Assembly (NCBI RefSeq): GCF_000518285.1
Contig: NZ_JADH01000003.1
Span: 1-64,000 of the forward strand
Origin: Williamsoniiplasma lucivorax ATCC 49196
Lineage (GTDB): Bacteria > Bacillota_I > Bacilli_A > Mycoplasmatales > Mycoplasmataceae
DNA length: 64,000 nucleotides
Direction: 5' to 3'
Made by a program: the position numbers and the translations under genes. The notes under the pieces are model-generated. The model worked only from the letters and a program-made list of their open reading frames with translations. It was not told the origin of the DNA and did no database searches. Numbering within the stretch: position 1 is the stretch's first letter; every line of letters starts with the position of its first letter. This document shows positions 6,959 through 59,269 of this stretch, piece by piece.

Positions 6959-7873
6959 TTATTTTATATTTCTTACTTTTTTAATTAGGTCGTAAGCTGC
7001 ATTCACTTTCGCCATTTTCTCTTTAGCACCATGGGATTTGTTTTTATCTGGATGATATTCCATCGCTAATTTACGATATGTTGATTTTAATTCTTGATCA
7101 GAAATGTTCTCATCAACCCCTAATGTTTTATAAGCTTTTCCAAGCTCACTCACTTCTTCATTAAAATTGTAATATTGTTGGTTTTGTTGTTGTTCAAATG
7201 AAGAATAGAAAGAATTATTAGAACTAAATTGGTTAAATAGTTCTTGAATAATCAGATCCACATCATGTTCTAAATCGGCATAAAATTCTTGTTCTTTAAA
7301 ACGAATAAATTCATTAAAATTAATAAAGCGGTGGTCCTGAATAATTTTTTGTGGGTCGTCATTTAACACTTCACCAATGATAGCCGGAATAATATCTTTA
7401 ATGTAAATATTCACCATTTCGTGTTTGAAAGCATCTAAAAATAAATTGTAATATTGTAATAAAAAATTAATTGCTTGTTGTGATTGTGGTAAATGGGTTT
7501 GGTCAAAAGCAATCAATAACTTTTTTTCTTGTTCAGCCCAAAATTTCATTAAATGGTCTTCATGAGTTAATAAGCTTTGAATAATTGCGTTAACTTTGCC
7601 ACTGCTAACATTGTTTTTAATTAATCAAGTTTTGGTTTCATTGTAATTACTAAAAAAAGGAAAAACATCAAAAAGTTCTTCAATATTATAAAAACGAATT
7701 TGATGTGTTTTGCGTTGTTGTTGCAACCAAATCTTTTTGTTTTTCGCAAACACATCAAAAGTGTTTTCTTGTTTATTTTTACGATTGCCACTTGATCTTT
7801 TCGCTCAAAAACCACCACCCGAAAAAATGGAAATGATAATAAAGATAATTAAGATAATAAAAATTGTTTTCAT
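6959..7873 (-). CDS. Membrane-anchored J-domain protein 1
   Basis: This is a 304-residue protein with an N-terminal hydrophobic segment (residues about 2-20, FIILIIFIIISIF), a middle region of helices without recognised family, and a C-terminal J-domain (about residues 245-304: AYKTLGVDENISD, YRKLAMEYHPDKNK, NAAYDLIKKVRN) with an intact HPD tripeptide. J-domains stimulate the ATPase of DnaK/Hsp70, so this should recruit DnaK to the inner face of the membrane. The start ATG at 7873 was chosen because it restores the membrane segment; codons 23 and 83 are TGA. It is the first-listed of four tandem relatives (up to 11028). The sequence before its ATG (TGTAAAATCATTTTATG) is nearly the same as before the third copy, which supports both starts. 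No dnaK lies in the window. Confidence 0.88.
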
Positions 7874-7947
7874 AAAATGATTTTACATTAAAAGATGATA
7901 GAAAAAGCAATAATTAAAATAATACACTTGGTGTTCCAATAGACAAT

Positions 7948-8996
7948 TTAATCCATTTTTCTAAATTCTTTTATCACAACATAAGCATCGATAATTTCAG
8001 ACATTTTTAATAGTTCTTCTTTATTTTGAATTGTGTTAGGTTGATATTTTTCAATTAATTTAAGATATTCATTCTTAAATTCTTCATTAGTAGCTTTAGG
8101 GTCAATCCCAAGAATTAGATAAGATTTAGTTAATGAATGAACTAGTTCATTAACTTCACTTTCATTTTTATAATGTTTTGTAACTTGTCGGGGATTAACT
8201 CGTGGTTTTGTTGGTTTTGTTGGTTTTGTTGGTTTTGTTGGTTTTGTTGGTTTTGTTGGTTTTGTTGGTTTTGTTGGTTTTGTTGGTTTTGTTGGTTTTG
8301 TTGGTTTTGTAAGTGTGCTTCTCGTCATTGTCGTTTTTGTTCTCGATAATAGTAGCGTTGTTCCTTTTCATGTTCAGATAATTTATGTTTCCCATCTCAT
8401 TCGGAATTTAGGCATTCTTTAAAATTTTTAGTAGTTCACTCTTCTCTAATAGCATTCATTGGTCCACCAAGAGTTACTGCGAATGACATTAATGCAACAA
8501 TAGCAGAAACTAGAAACACCAAAAAGAATGATAAAATTGCTTCAACCATTCTAAAAATAGTTTTGGTAAAGTCATCTACAAACATATGATAAGCATGTGG
8601 CATAAACATCATGGTCCCAAAAAATAATATTGAACCACCTATCCCACCTAAACTTCATCAATGATGACAATAATTAAAAGTCGCAGTGGTGACGAGATAA
8701 GCAAATGAACAAGTAAAGAAACCAAATCCAAATCCTGCTAAATATCCAATAGGGATTGCTCTAAAATGTAATATCTCTCCTTGTACATTTATTCAATCAT
8801 AAATTGGTTTAAACAGTTCCTGATTTCATAACATTGGTTTAACCTTACTATTAATGACTCCTGAAAAAGTAGTTGCTAATAAAGGAACGGAAAAATAAAT
8901 AAAAAGAGCAAGTGCACCACCACAAATTGCCAATCTCAACATAACTTTTACAAAGTAAAAGAATCACCCTTGTTTTCTCATCTTATTTTTTTCCAT
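7948..8996 (-). pseudogene. Multi-TM protein with degenerate J-domain, frameshifted at a (TKP)12 repeat
   Basis: The ATG at 8996 opens a frame (284 codons to TAG 8144-8142) beginning MEKNKMRKQGWFFYF. It has about four membrane segments, then a charged coil (SEHEKEQRYYYREQKRQW) and an Asn/Gln repeat. A second frame, open from 8328 to TAA 7948, reads the same repeat as Thr-Lys-Pro and continues into a J-like domain (SYLILGIDPKATNEEF, YLKLIEKYQPN, IIDAYVVIKEF) in which HPD has become QPN. The two frames differ by two bases. The ATG at 8328 has no ribosome site, so I read this as one gene broken by an indel near the repeat. Alternatives are programmed frameshifting or a sequence error. Confidence 0.6.
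8204..8310. repeat. Twelve-copy 9-bp minisatellite (GGTTTTGTT)
   Basis: There are twelve near-perfect copies of GGTTTTGTT on the plus strand, the last lacking one base. On the minus strand they encode (Thr-Lys-Pro)n, (Asn-Gln-Gln)n or (Lys-Thr-Asn)n according to frame; none contains a stop. Copy-number changes keep the frame, so the repeat alters linker length rather than phase. Confidence 0.95.
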
Positions 8997-9151
8997 TGAA
9001 ATTAGTTTAATTCCTTTATTATCATAAAATGAGATAAAAAAAATAGCAAACTAATATTAGTTTTGACTCATCATTTTTAAATTTTATGATTTGATTAATC
9101 TTTACTGTATTAAAGCATATTCAAAATATTTTTCTCCAATTGAAGAAAATC

Positions 9152-10045
9152 CTATTTTATATTTCTTGCTTTTTTAATGAGGCTATAAGCACTATTAATT
9201 TTGACCATTTTTAATTTATTGGTTTCATTTGGTAATTTATCTGGATGATATTTTTTAGCGAGTTGACGATAAATTTTTTTTAAATCTTCATCACTAATAT
9301 TAGAGTCCACCCCAAGTACTTGATAAGCATCTTCTAATTCTGAATTTGGTAATCATAAATCTTCAAAATATTCTTCATCTGGCGATATTTCAGCTTCTTT
9401 AAAAAAATCTTATAAATTTTTCTGATATTCTATATCCATTGTGACAACAAATTTTTGCAAATTCTCTATAATAATTTTCTCTAGAATATCACTTTTTGAA
9501 AAATGATTTTTTTTAATTAAAACTTGGCCAAGAATTAAAGGTAGTGTTTCTTGAACAAAAAAGAGAATAGTATTTTGTGTCATTATGTCTAAAAAAAGCT
9601 TGTGATACTTTAAAGAAAGATTAGTTTCTGGAGTTGGTGTTACATTAATAGGTAAACCATCTTCAACTGGATACATTAACAAAATTGCACTAAAACCTTC
9701 TTCATACTCTTCTCATTTAGTTTGAAACTGCATTGCAGCATTTTCAATTATTTCTAAAAAGAAATAATATTCATCATACTGTAAAGCTTGTTTTTGTAAT
9801 CAAAATTGCACATTTTCAAAATCACTCAAAGGAAAGGAAAAATTAAATTGTTCTTGAATATTATGAATAGGGATTTGAATTGTATATTTTGCAGTCATTC
9901 TTCAATTCTTTTTATTTTCTTCATAAATAGTTGTCATAAATGGTGCTCTGTTTTTATTTTTGTATGAACGATATAAATAAACAACAGCCCCAACAATTAA
10001 ATTGGCTGCAACAATTCCCAGAATTTTAGCTCAAATATAACTCAT
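9152..10045 (-). pseudogene. Membrane-anchored J-domain protein 3, stopped before the J-domain
   Basis: From ATG 10045 the frame encodes one N-terminal membrane segment (AKILGIVAANLIVGAVVYLY) and a helical middle region related to copies 1 and 4 (YHKLFLDIMTQNTILFF, ETLPLILGQ). Codon 212 is TAA (9412-9410). The same frame then continues without any shift into a complete J-domain ([39 protein letters not shown]) ending at TAG 9152. In the intact fourth copy the aligned position is Ser, so one TCA-to-TAA change would explain it. As written, the protein would be membrane anchor plus middle region without the DnaK-stimulating part. Confidence 0.75.
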
Positions 10046-10140
10046 AAATTGATTTTACAAGAAAAATATAAAAACTAGTAAATTACTATTTTGGTTCTTG
10101 GATTGCAACTTTAAATAGAGGGTGCATTTTACTAAAAATA

Positions 10141-11028
10141 TTATTTTATATTTTTATTTTTTTTAATAAGGTTGTAAGCATTATTGATTTCTGTCATTTT
10201 GAATTCAGTATTTTTTGTGCCAGCTGCATCTGGATGATATATTTTTGATAATTGCAAATATACTTTTTTTAGTTCTTCATCATTAACATCAGAAGTCAAC
10301 CCAAGAATTCAATATGCTTTTTCTAAATCATTAATTAAGGAATCAGAATTATTATAATATGAATTTTTTGGTTCAGATTCGACTTCTGTCAAAAAATCTG
10401 ATATATGTTTTTTTAAGGATTCTTCCATTGAAGCAACAAAATTTTCAATAGTTTTGTCTAATAATTTGTCTATCTGATCATTATTTTCAAAAAAATTACT
10501 ATTTAAATTTAATGCTTGTTTGATAATGTAAGGAATTGTTTCAAAAATGAAAAACTTGATAGTGTTCTTTCTTAGTTCATCTAAAAATAAAATTTGATAT
10601 TTTGTGGAAATTGCATATTCGGGTTCGTCTGGATCTTCTTCTGGTTCTGGAGTAGAATCTAAAACTTCATTAAAAGTTTCTTCGAGTCTATTTCATTCAT
10701 TTTGAAAGATTGATTCGCTATAATTTATTGCTTCAATTACATCATCAACTCTATTGTCATTCAATCCCTTTTCTTCTAATCAATCTGTTATGTTATCATA
10801 ATCACTAAAAGATGAGTCAAAAATGAAATCTTCTTCAATGTTATATTTTGGAATTAAAATAGTCATTTCAGAATCATCAATTCATTCGAATTTATTTTCT
10901 TCAAAAATATTCACATCAAGAGCTTTTTCATCTCTTTTTCTTTTATAAAACTTAAACAAATAATAAATACCTAACCCAACCAAACAAGCTAATCCCGGAA
11001 TTAATCCTAACATTCAATAAAATTTCAT
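10141..11028 (-). CDS. Membrane-anchored J-domain protein 4
   Basis: This intact 295-residue protein starts at ATG 11028 (MKFYWMLGLIPGLACLVGLG): one N-terminal membrane segment, then a basic stop-transfer (FKFYKRKRDEK). An acidic middle region (PEPEEDPDEPE) leads to a helical part shared with copies 1 and 3 (YQILFLDELRKNTIKFF, ETIPYIIKQ). The C-terminal J-domain (KAYWILGLTSDVNDEEL, YLQLSKIYHPDAAG, INNAYNLIKK) has HPD intact. Five Trp codons are TGA. It starts just after the terminator of rpmA, so it probably has its own promoter. The J-domain predicts interaction with DnaK at the membrane; the substrate is unknown. Confidence 0.88.
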
Positions 11029-12167: not shown

Positions 12168-12191
12168 AAAAAAAGGCCTGAGCCTTTTTGC
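12168..12191 (-). terminator. Terminator of the double-glycine peptide gene
   Basis: The arms AAAAGGC and GCCTTTT are followed by a T run on the minus strand, right after the stop codon. Confidence 0.85.
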
Positions 12192-12544
12192 TAACAAAAA
12201 TCATGTAAATGATCGACCATTGGTAGATCTTCATGATGTGGAGTTACTTCCGGAATGTAGATTGCAGCTGGTGCTGGATGCACTACTGGCGCTGGATGCA
12301 CTGCTGGTGCTGGATGGTGCGCCGCTGGCTCTGGATGTTTAGTATTATCCCAAGTCATTGATGCATCCTTCGATTTAACCATGCCTTTATCTGCATCATT
12401 GTGTCCGAATGTAACAATTGAATTAATAACTGTCCCAACAAAGGAAACTACAGCATTGAAAATTGCAGCAATTCCACTAAGAAACGATCCTGAAATACGT
12501 CCCCCGTCAGTACTTTTTAATTCTTGTTGTGTAAGTTGTCTCAC
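12191..12544 (-). CDS. Small secreted-peptide precursor with double-glycine leader (bacteriocin-like)
   Basis: This 117-residue ORF starts best at GTG 12544, eight bases after AAGGGG; an in-frame GTG at 12553 overlaps the ribosome site. The leader MRQLTQQELKSTDGG fits the double-glycine rule for C39-peptidase ABC exporters: Leu at -12, Thr at -11, Glu-Leu at -8/-7, Gly-Gly at -2/-1. The following 30 residues are small, glycine-rich and amphipathic (ISGSFLSGIAAIFNAVVSFV), as in class II bacteriocins. The last 45 residues form an unusual His/Pro/Ala tail (HPAPAVHPAPVVHPAPAA and HHEDLPMVDHLHDF) that could bind metal. It has its own terminator. No exporter or immunity gene is recognisable nearby. 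The product could be a bacteriocin, a signal peptide or something else. Confidence 0.7.
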   Translation of the reverse strand: MRQLTQQELKSTDGGRISGSFLSGIAAIFNAVVSFVGTVINSIVTFGHNDADKGMVKSKDASMTWDNTKHPEPAAHHPAPAVHPAPVVHPAPAAIYIPEVTPHHEDLPMVDHLHDFC

Positions 12545-12678
12545 ATATATCACCCCTTATTAGATTAGAGATTCTTTTGTGATTTTTGCGATTTTTTGTA
12601 AATTTATTTTTTGATTAGTAAATTTTGTTTGTTTTTATACATCTAAAAGAGGTCAAAATATTTTAAGAAAAACATAAA

Positions 12679-12795: not shown

Positions 12796-13683
12796 TTATA
12801 AATTTTTGTTCATTTTTAAGTATTTATTATAAATTTCATTTTTATTTAAATCAAATAAGTCCGAAACAATTGCACTGGCTTGTTTTAGTTTGTAGCCTTG
12901 GGCTAGATATTTTTCAACTTCAATAAAGATTTGTTGGTCAGTCATGGATGAATTTGTGGTTGGTTTAGCATCTAAAACAACCACAAATTCACCTTTCAAA
13001 ATAAAGTCTTCACTTTGAATCACTTGATTCACTTCTGCTACTGTTCCTTGGATGATTTGTTCATTAATTTTAGTTAATTCACGAGCAACTAGCACATTTG
13101 CTTGGGCATCAATAGCCTGTAAAACTTGCATTGTTTCACGAATACGATGAACAGATTCATAAAAGGCGAGAATATGTTCTTGATTAAATTTTGAAATCAC
13201 TTGAGTTAATTCAATTGTTTTTGTTTGCTCATTTTTATTTTTAATAAAACCATAAAATAAATTAGAAATATTAGTATATCCTGAAATAGCAATCGCATGA
13301 ATATAAGCTGGTCCAGCATTAATCGCTGTGACATTCACAGGTAAATTCAACTTACGAATTTGGTTAATCACAATTGCTCCTGGATCAGAAATAATCGGTA
13401 CTCCAGCATCACTAATGATTGCCACATTTTTATTGTCTTGTAAATACTGAACTAATTGGGCAATTTTTTGGGTTTCATTAACTTTGTTTAATGAAACCAA
13501 AGGTTTCGAAATGTTGTATTTTTGCAATAAAACTTTTGAAACTCTGGTGTCTTCACAAAAAATGACATCCACTGCCTGTAAAGTTTCCACACCTCGCAAT
13601 GAAAAATCATCAAGGTTACCAATCGGGGTTCCGACTAGAAAAATTGTTGGGTAATTATTTTTAAAAGTATTTTGATTAAGCAT
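12796..13683 (-). CDS. rsmI: 16S rRNA (cytidine1402-2'-O)-methyltransferase
   Basis: RsmI (295 aa) methylates the ribose of C1402 in 16S rRNA using S-adenosylmethionine. The tetrapyrrole-methylase fold motifs are clear: LVGTPIGNLDDFSLR near the N-terminus, FCEDTRVSKVLL, SDAGVPIISDPG, and FYESVHRI with AREL.K in the C-terminal half. The start ATG at 13683 follows AAAGGAAATT. The gene lies just downstream of greA and its terminator. No strong terminator follows; a weak hairpin lies at 12713-12736. Confidence 0.95.
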   Translation of the reverse strand: MLNQNTFKNNYPTIFLVGTPIGNLDDFSLRGVETLQAVDVIFCEDTRVSKVLLQKYNISKPLVSLNKVNETQKIAQLVQYLQDNKNVAIISDAGVPIISDPGAIVINQIRKLNLPVNVTAINAGPAYIHAIAISGYTNISNLFYGFIKNKNEQTKTIELTQVISKFNQEHILAFYESVHRIRETMQVLQAIDAQANVLVARELTKINEQIIQGTVAEVNQVIQSEDFILKGEFVVVLDAKPTTNSSMTDQQIFIEVEKYLAQGYKLKQASAIVSDLFDLNKNEIYNKYLKMNKNL

Positions 13684-13697
13684 AATTTCCTTTCACA

Positions 13698-13719
13698 AAA
13701 AAAGACCATCAAGGTCCTT
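13698..13719 (-). terminator. Terminator after greA
   Basis: The arms GGACC and GGTCT (one G-U pair) are followed by seven T residues on the minus strand. Confidence 0.75.
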
Positions 13720-57744: not shown

Positions 57745-59199
57745 TTACATAAAAGCATAAGCCACTAAATAAACAATAAAGACAACATCCAAGACCCAAA
57801 CTAAGGGGTGAACTTCTTTAATTTTTTTAGTAGCAATTGCCCCAATTGAATAAGCAATAATGCCCATGACAATCCCGTTGGCAATCGAAAATGTGATCAC
57901 CATAAAGAGAATTGCAAAGAAGGCTCCTAAGCCAATTTCAGTTCTTGATCATTCAATTTCAGTGACTGATTTAATCATGACTGTTCCGATAAAAACAGTG
58001 GCTGCCCCACTTAAACAATTTGGCATCATTTTAAAAATCGGAAATAATGCTAAACTTAATAAAAATCCACAACTTGTCACAATGCTGGCTAATCCAGTTC
58101 TAGCCCCTTGCATAATCCCAACACAACTCTCAGTATAACAAGCCATATGTGAAACACCTAAAGCTGAACCCATGACAGTTGCTCCAGCATCAATCACTAA
58201 AGCTTTGGGAGGGATTTCTTGATTTAATCCTGATGCACGATTCATTTCAATATTCACACTAGTTAATGTTCCGGTAGCATCGAAGAAATTTAAAATAATA
58301 AAGATAAAAATGGAAATATACATTGTTGGTTTATTCCAAATTTCGGGATTGATAAATTGTTTATAAGTGTGTTCTAGATTAGTCACAAAACCATGAAATT
58401 CTGAATAATCTCATTGCCCATCTTTTCATTTGGCTGTGCCAAATGAATGTTTAATAGCAGCATTATCAGTGACATTTGCTAAGATAATCACAATCACAAA
58501 ACCAATTAACAACATCACAATCACAGGCGCAAAAAACTTTTTATAAAATAAAATAATCGCTCCAAATAAAACGGCTGTTCCTAAAATAATTCCTGGATAG
58601 TTCATTTTAAAGTCAGATAGATTAGCGATTGGTAATCCTGATGGTGATGTTTGCACTCATCCCATATTAACAATTCCGACATAAGCGATGAAAAATCCAA
58701 TACCAACCCCAATTGCTAAATGAATTGAGTGTGGCAAACTACGAATTAAAGTGGCTCTTAATTTGGTGACAGACATCAAACAAAAGATTAATGATGAAAG
58801 AGTTGTTGCAATTAGTGCCCCTTCATAACCAATACCACCTTGATTAGCAATATTAAAGGAAAACATCGCATTTAAACCCATACTGGGTGCTAAACCAATC
58901 GGCACATTAGCACTTAAACCCATCACCAAAGTAGCAATAAATGAAGCAACTGCTGTAGCGACAAACACACCCCCGCTACTCATGTGTTGTGTTGGATCAC
59001 TAATGCTTTGTGCTTGACCTAAAAGATTTGGTTCCACTGATAAAATATAAATCATTGATAAAAAGGTACTTACCCCACCAATAATTTCTTTTTTAAAAGT
59101 TGTTTTGAAATCACTGAATTTAAAATACTTGGCAATTTTAGAATTTTCCAGATAATTTCGTTGTAAGCTCTTTTGAGCTTTAAAATTTTTTTTGTTCAT
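57745..59199 (-). CDS. NCS2-family purine (guanine/hypoxanthine/adenine) permease
   Basis: This 484-residue permease of the AzgA/PbuG type imports purine bases. It has TTFKKEIIGGVSTFLSMIYI, VGLSANVPIGLAPSMGLNAM-like (GLSANVPIGLAPSMGLNAMF), IGVGIGFFIAYVGIVNMG, FDATGTLTSVN, GVSHMACYTESCVGIMQGAR, GLASIVTSCGFL. ATG 59199 (MNKKNFKAQKS) follows AGAGG. A guanine-type riboswitch precedes the gene. Twelve to fourteen TM segments. Confidence 0.93.
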
Positions 59200-59228
59200 T
59201 GAACCTCTATTCTTAACCAGATAAGAAG

Positions 59229-59269
59229 AAAAAAGAAAAAAGTTAACCAATGGAGAGAATATTAGTTAA
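59229..59269 (-). terminator. Riboswitch expression-platform terminator
   Basis: TTAACTAAT and ATTGGTTAA (one G-U pair) form a 9-bp stem followed by CTTTTTTCTTTTTT on the minus strand, 30 bases before the permease start. Confidence 0.7.

Follow-up and report, generated by a model that had tools for sequence, protein, structure and literature searches.

Within the window, by which we mean the whole 64,000-nucleotide stretch of DNA analysed here, a gene encoding a 117-residue precursor with a Gly-Gly (GG) leader occupies positions 12191..12544 of the minus strand, running from a GTG start at 12544 to a TAG stop at 12193-12191 in a frame that is open under genetic code 4. The longest version of this ORF begins at GTG 12553, a codon that overlaps the Shine-Dalgarno sequence AAGGGGTGAT (12549..12558, minus strand). 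An AAGGGG stands 8 nt ahead of the GTG at 12544, its GGGG at a spacing comparable to that in orthologues, and this GTG coincides with the position of the orthologue starts; on these two grounds we take GTG 12544 to be the start and the coordinates 12191..12544 to be correct. The first 15 residues, VRQLTQQELKSTDGG (12500..12544, minus strand), end in Gly-Gly and belong to a leader that is gapless across the family, with Leu at -12, Glu at -8, a hydrophobic residue at -4 and GG at -2/-1. The GG-leader peptide gene called in the initial annotation is confirmed in frame, start and leader. Judged from the position of this leader, a C39 peptidase would cut between 12500 and 12499 (minus strand) and leave a predicted mature product of 102 residues (12194..12499, minus strand). 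Directly past the stop, a palindrome read from the sequence (AAAAAGGC-CTGA-GCCTTTTT; 12170..12189, minus strand) is a possible terminator; a terminator scan called no site there by its own rule and left the palindrome unscored.

Residues 19-51 (RISGSFLSGIAAIFNAVVSFVGTVINSIVTF; 12392..12490, minus strand) are predicted to form a Gly/Ala-rich hydrophobic helix, on the basis of hydropathy and of a single-sequence AlphaFold2 model that contains one confident helix over these residues (block pLDDT up to 94) and in which the remainder and the tail are disordered. Because the mean pLDDT of this model is only 65, we take it as support for the helix and the disorder alone. The helix is rich in GxxxG, and its best 19-residue KD is 2.03; in many orthologues the corresponding value is a moderate ~0.8-1.4. 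Next comes a conserved motif, KGMVKSKDASMTWDN (12344..12388, minus strand), seen in alignments A1, A3 and A5, with G54, K57 and W65 invariant in A3. The conserved parts of the family are the leader, the Gly/Ala-rich helix and the motif KG..K......(T/S/K)W(D/E)(N/D), and the tail is lineage-specific. In the window gene, 2.7 tandem copies of an 18-bp repeat (12268..12316, minus strand) encode a His-Pro-Ala tail of the kind the initial annotation described. The tail does not occur in other orthologues, and in the nearest of them (G003) the repeat is absent or reduced; by this comparison of sequences the tail is a lineage-specific expansion of the 18-bp repeat.

The gene sits at a conserved chromosomal address, the order in most genera of the family being greA-rsmI-[peptide]-rplU-ysxB-rpmA. 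In the window, the gene on the upstream side is rsmI (12796..13698, minus strand), which keeps this place in most of the family, and rplU, which encodes L21 (11701..12003, minus strand) and is conserved as a neighbour across families, lies downstream. An L21 leader RNA (Rfam RF00559; 12011..12088, minus strand) gives rplU a control region of its own, so the peptide gene is probably a separate transcription unit. The peptide gene likewise precedes rplU in Mesoplasma, and greA adjoins it in several genomes of the Spiroplasma-type genus g7. Several peptide genes of family f7, and one of f3 (G516), lie beside rplU-rpmA, and the slot before rplU is common to f1, f7 and one f3 genome.

Other features of the window deserve brief mention. 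Positions 6959-11028 hold a cluster of membrane-anchored proteins in which C-terminal DnaJ domains are found at 6959-7873 and 10141-11028, with short J-domain or J-less relatives in between; a perfect 9-bp repeat of 12 copies (8203-8310), open in several frames, lies at the end of the ORF at 8142-8996 (poly-NQQ). A purine riboswitch (RF00167; 59328-59424) lies upstream of a permease gene (57745-59250), and the window's left end holds an IS3-like transposase ORF (356-1372).

A search with profile A1 returned an orthologue of the peptide in 51 of the 60 genomes of the family, with one real copy in each. Second matches in five genomes (G029, G005, G015, G011 and G025) proved to be membrane-permease pieces or low-complexity frames, none of them GG peptides, and the second match in G036 is half of a single frameshifted peptide copy. 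The leader is exactly 15 residues long in 50 of the 51 orthologues. All of them have L, M or I at position -12; position -8 is mostly E or Q and position -4 mostly I, V or L, with G or A at -2 in 50 and G at -1 in 49. Conservation of this order, position by position across 51 orthologues, indicates that the leader is not a product of chance, and the match to the C39 consensus on which the initial annotation rested extends, at -12, -8, -4 and GG, to the family. Eight orthologues have ATC, ATT or ATA where the start is expected, at the usual Shine-Dalgarno spacing and with no ATG, GTG or TTG there (L058, L060, L083 and L084 in G021, G014, G082 and G004; L110, L117, L119 and L120 in G071, G072, G001 and G073), so that the peptide gene would escape annotation in those genomes; these look like non-canonical starts, in eight species.

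The family extends well beyond these genomes. Of 320 genomes searched across the order Mycoplasmatales, 282 encode a C39 protein. In a second family, f7, profiles A3 and A5 detected the peptide in 128 of 133 C39-positive genomes, and profile A5 detected none in 17 C39-negative genomes of f1 and f11. The f7 peptides share, with variations, the motif GEIKTKD.(S/T).KW(D/E)N and frequently end in IYxxY or HYC. The window gene is the local copy of an ancient, single-copy, order-wide and largely syntenic Mycoplasmatales family of GG-leader peptides.

A more distant branch is apparently formed by MPN313, judging from profile matches; it seems to include RrlA (MG_220), which sigma-20-dependent recombination of M. 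genitalium is reported to require. The NCBIfam profile NF045747 (MPN313) detects GG-leader peptides in f3, and it also has matches in f7 and f1 that coincide in position with peptides of the window family; the window peptide itself scores 13.8 bits, below the cut-off of 100, and the peptide of G047 scores 138.9 bits. In profile-profile comparisons by hhalign, the alignment between this branch and the window family is confined to leader and helix, over 44-48 columns with a probability of 94-96%. The G047 peptide adjoins an mraZ-like gene, which we take to be the neighbourhood of MG_220, and we infer G047 to be M. genitalium and the peptide in question to be MG_220. As GG leaders resemble each other anyway, the MPN313 branch is less secure than the link between f1 and f7. 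According to a review, RrlA (mg220) is a transmembrane sigma accessory protein, and sigma-20 activity requires rrlA as well as rrlB (PMC9262362).

The C39-peptidase exporter whose absence from the genome would, by the initial annotation, have refuted its reading was found. The genome (31 contigs, 98.7% complete) encodes one clear C39 domain (E 3.2e-29), within a 596-aa protein (near G000:C2:92908) on a contig other than that of the peptide; the domain covers roughly residues 1-140. Its catalytic Q, Cys, His and Asp residues are all present, and the domain resembles the solved ComA/PCAT peptidase domains (PDB 3k8u, 6mpz). The best NCBIfam match of the protein is NF045998, with a score of 144 bits where the cut-off is 500, and it spans positions 2-452 of the 673 in the model, that is, without the ATPase end. 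A weak second C39-like match in this genome (L002), beside a ThiI-like ORF, fell below the cut-off and was rejected. The other ABC-exporter matches in the genome amount to one neighbouring pair (C2:48.7-51.4 kb), and the member of it examined in full has normal motifs.

No functional ATP-binding cassette was found in the C39 protein of the window genome (G000), from which Walker A, signature and Walker B motifs are gone. The same three motifs are gone from the C39 proteins of the window's genus as a whole (g1), of genera g2, g3, g4 and g9, and of G012, and the aligned members of all these groups retain the whole peptidase triad; the C39 transporter at L004:12909-14699 has this combination of lost ATPase motifs and retained triad. 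The three motifs are present in the intact C39 proteins of g7, g11, g12 and G019. In Mesoplasma the degenerate ATPase region is still constrained, with a dN/dS of 0.15-0.43, and the C39 domain has values of 0.05-0.29. The loss of the ATPase motifs together with the retention of the peptidase triad points to leader cleavage as the conserved job of the protein in the genera concerned.

Peptide and C39 protein occur together and decay together. Across the 60 family genomes, the C39 protein is present in 50 and the peptide in 51, both are missing in eight, and the association has a Fisher p of 1.5e-7, with shared ancestry ignored. The rplU regions of the eight double-negative genomes contain no convincing remnant of the peptide gene, that of G008 being a contig edge. 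The sole genome with a C39 protein and no peptide, G022, was set aside as a counterexample, as its rplU was not returned either and the locus is missing or masked. Two genomes have the peptide without a detectable C39 protein: G010, whose leader still ends in GG, and G023, in which C39 is lost and the leader reads GV in place of GG. In G031 several stops interrupt the C39 gene and the leader reads EV; in G036 both genes are frameshifted. G064 retains a C39 remnant and a GG leader, and G017 and G080 have frameshifted exporters and normal peptides. Of the four genomes in which the C39 domain is not intact, two have lost the -1 Gly, as against none of the other 47 (p 0.005, again with shared ancestry ignored). 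With regard to selection, dN in the peptide core is far below dS in Mesoplasma; relaxed selection on the G031 peptide was not shown, as dS is raised along with the core dN.

From the co-occurrence, the co-decay and the gapless conservation of the leader we conclude that the C39 peptidase/ABC proteins of mollicutes very probably have the window peptide family as their dedicated substrate, a reading to which we assign a probability of roughly 0.8. Against it count the position of the exporter gene, which is not adjacent, the persistence of GG in G010 and G064, the normal peptides that accompany frameshifted exporters in G017 and G080, and, as regards export, the dead ATPase of the window's genus. 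Under this reading the 15-residue leader would dock in the C39 domain and then be cut after the second Gly, giving a 102-residue peptide made up of a ~33-residue Gly/Ala-rich hydrophobic helix, the KG..K......TWDN motif and a variable tail. The transmembrane part of the same C39 protein would free the peptide to the outer face of the membrane or lodge it there. In Spiroplasma-type genera the C39 protein that would do this has its ATPase intact; for the window's genus and sister genera, its conserved job would be leader cleavage, and insertion or export would be powered otherwise. Such ATPase-dead, peptidase-conserved exporters would represent a natural split of peptide maturation from ATP-driven export.

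One variant of this explanation, compatible with cleavage by C39, sees the product as a microprotein, structural or regulatory, that resides in the membrane: once the leader has been removed, the helix would remain embedded with KG..K..TWDN on the outer side, and nothing would diffuse away. The helix is hydrophobic and of membrane-spanning length, the exporter ATPase is dead in several genera that keep the peptidase, and RrlA is given as transmembrane in the review cited above (PMC9262362). The moderate hydrophobicity of many orthologues and the intact ATPase of some genera, which suggests true export, weigh on the other side, and we regard this variant as a credible possibility, somewhat short of an even chance.

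We consider it improbable that the gene encodes a class II bacteriocin, kept for competition, whose mature helix would permeabilise rival mollicutes or bacteria of other kinds. The peptide does have a GxxxG-rich helix, a GG leader and a C39 protein in its genome, and it bears a sub-threshold resemblance to the cerein 7B class IIb family (TIGR03949; 16.8 bits vs a cut-off of 21.5). It exceeds the cut-off of no curated bacteriocin model, however, and Pfam returned no family and PHROGs nothing useful. The class II bacteriocin-like segment of the initial annotation is present as a hydrophobic, helix-like segment. Moreover, the gene is single-copy in 51 of 60 family genomes and occupies a mostly fixed housekeeping slot, a pattern that indicates vertical inheritance and weakens the bacteriocin reading. 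No immunity gene, bacteriocin cluster or second peptide was seen beside the window gene, whose neighbours are rsmI and rplU, the distribution of the family showed no patchiness, and the exporter is unlinked. The core is also strongly constrained in Mesoplasma, whereas bacteriocins vary. The wider proposal, in which a His/Pro tail would mark out a one-off toxin or metal-binding peptide, finds no support, since the family is order-wide and single-copy and the tail lineage-specific.

Very improbable is the idea that the GG leader is a fossil, with the C39 protein having another substrate or job and the peptide being unrelated to it: the lipoyl-peptide import proposed for JCVI-syn3A 0401 (PMC6609329), the lack of linkage between the two genes and the survival of the peptide without C39 in G010 favour it, but co-occurrence, co-decay, gapless leader conservation and the confinement of -1 Gly loss to genomes with a broken or missing C39 all speak against it.

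If the peptide is a C39 substrate, its role would most likely be that of a constitutive extracellular or membrane-borne signalling or regulatory peptide and not a weapon, an assignment for which RrlA is a hint and in which our confidence is low. Still more speculative, and in our view unlikely, is an order-wide signalling system in which one GG peptide per genome, matured by C39, switches on recombination or gene-transfer programmes, as for RrlA and sigma-20, with an ATPase-dead peptidase/permease as the machine of the Mesoplasma/Williamsoniiplasma type. Such a system would be a minimal counterpart of ComC-ComAB-ComX. Should the link to RrlA hold, sigma-20-type control of recombination may depend on a processed peptide.

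C39 proteins are nearly universal in the order, and one has been kept in the minimal cell JCVI-syn3A; in the window peptide family they gain a candidate substrate whose place in the chromosome is conserved. The C39 protein 0401 of JCVI-syn3A was described as having "no candidate" GG peptide, as were those of other mycoplasmas, and, as no such peptide was known, it was tentatively modelled as a lipoyl-peptide importer (PMC6609329). Our limited literature search found no report of GG-leader peptides in mollicutes and nothing relevant on MMSYN1_0502, MPN571 or MPN313. Found once per genome in most of the mycoplasma and spiroplasma relatives that encode a C39 protein, the window peptide family is likely to be the missing substrate of this C39 machine, sought in vain for JCVI-syn3A. 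An exporter scan of the genome collection returned ten loci, none from M. mycoides, and by shared contigs it identified G011 as Mesoplasma seiffertii, G029 as [Acholeplasma] multilocale and G034 as Mesoplasma grammopterae; 0401, likewise a C39 peptidase transporter in a mycoplasma, is compared here by its published description alone (PMC6609329).

Among characterised systems, the closest parallels are the PCAT/ComA exporters with ComC and the class II bacteriocins. They share with the mollicute pair the GG leader (L-12, E-8, hydrophobic -4, G-2 G-1), the C39 triad and the fusion of the peptidase to an ABC transmembrane region. In the mollicutes, by contrast, peptide and exporter genes are unlinked, a single peptide per genome is found through much of the order, and in the window's genus and sister genera the C39 protein has a degenerate ATPase. 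Unlike ComC and class II bacteriocins, the mature peptide may reach 136 aa and carries the conserved KG..K..TWDN motif. The Mbov_0121 family of peptidase domain-containing ABC transporters (NF045998) matches the window C39 protein in architecture and lineage, although the latter scores below the cut-off of the family model. Finally, MPN313/MG_220 (RrlA) resembles the window peptide in its GG leader and hydrophobic helix, and one f3 member lies before rplU-rpmA, whereas its C-terminal half is unrelated, with LRFGLTP/RLSPxPxRSA where the window family has KG..K..TWDN.
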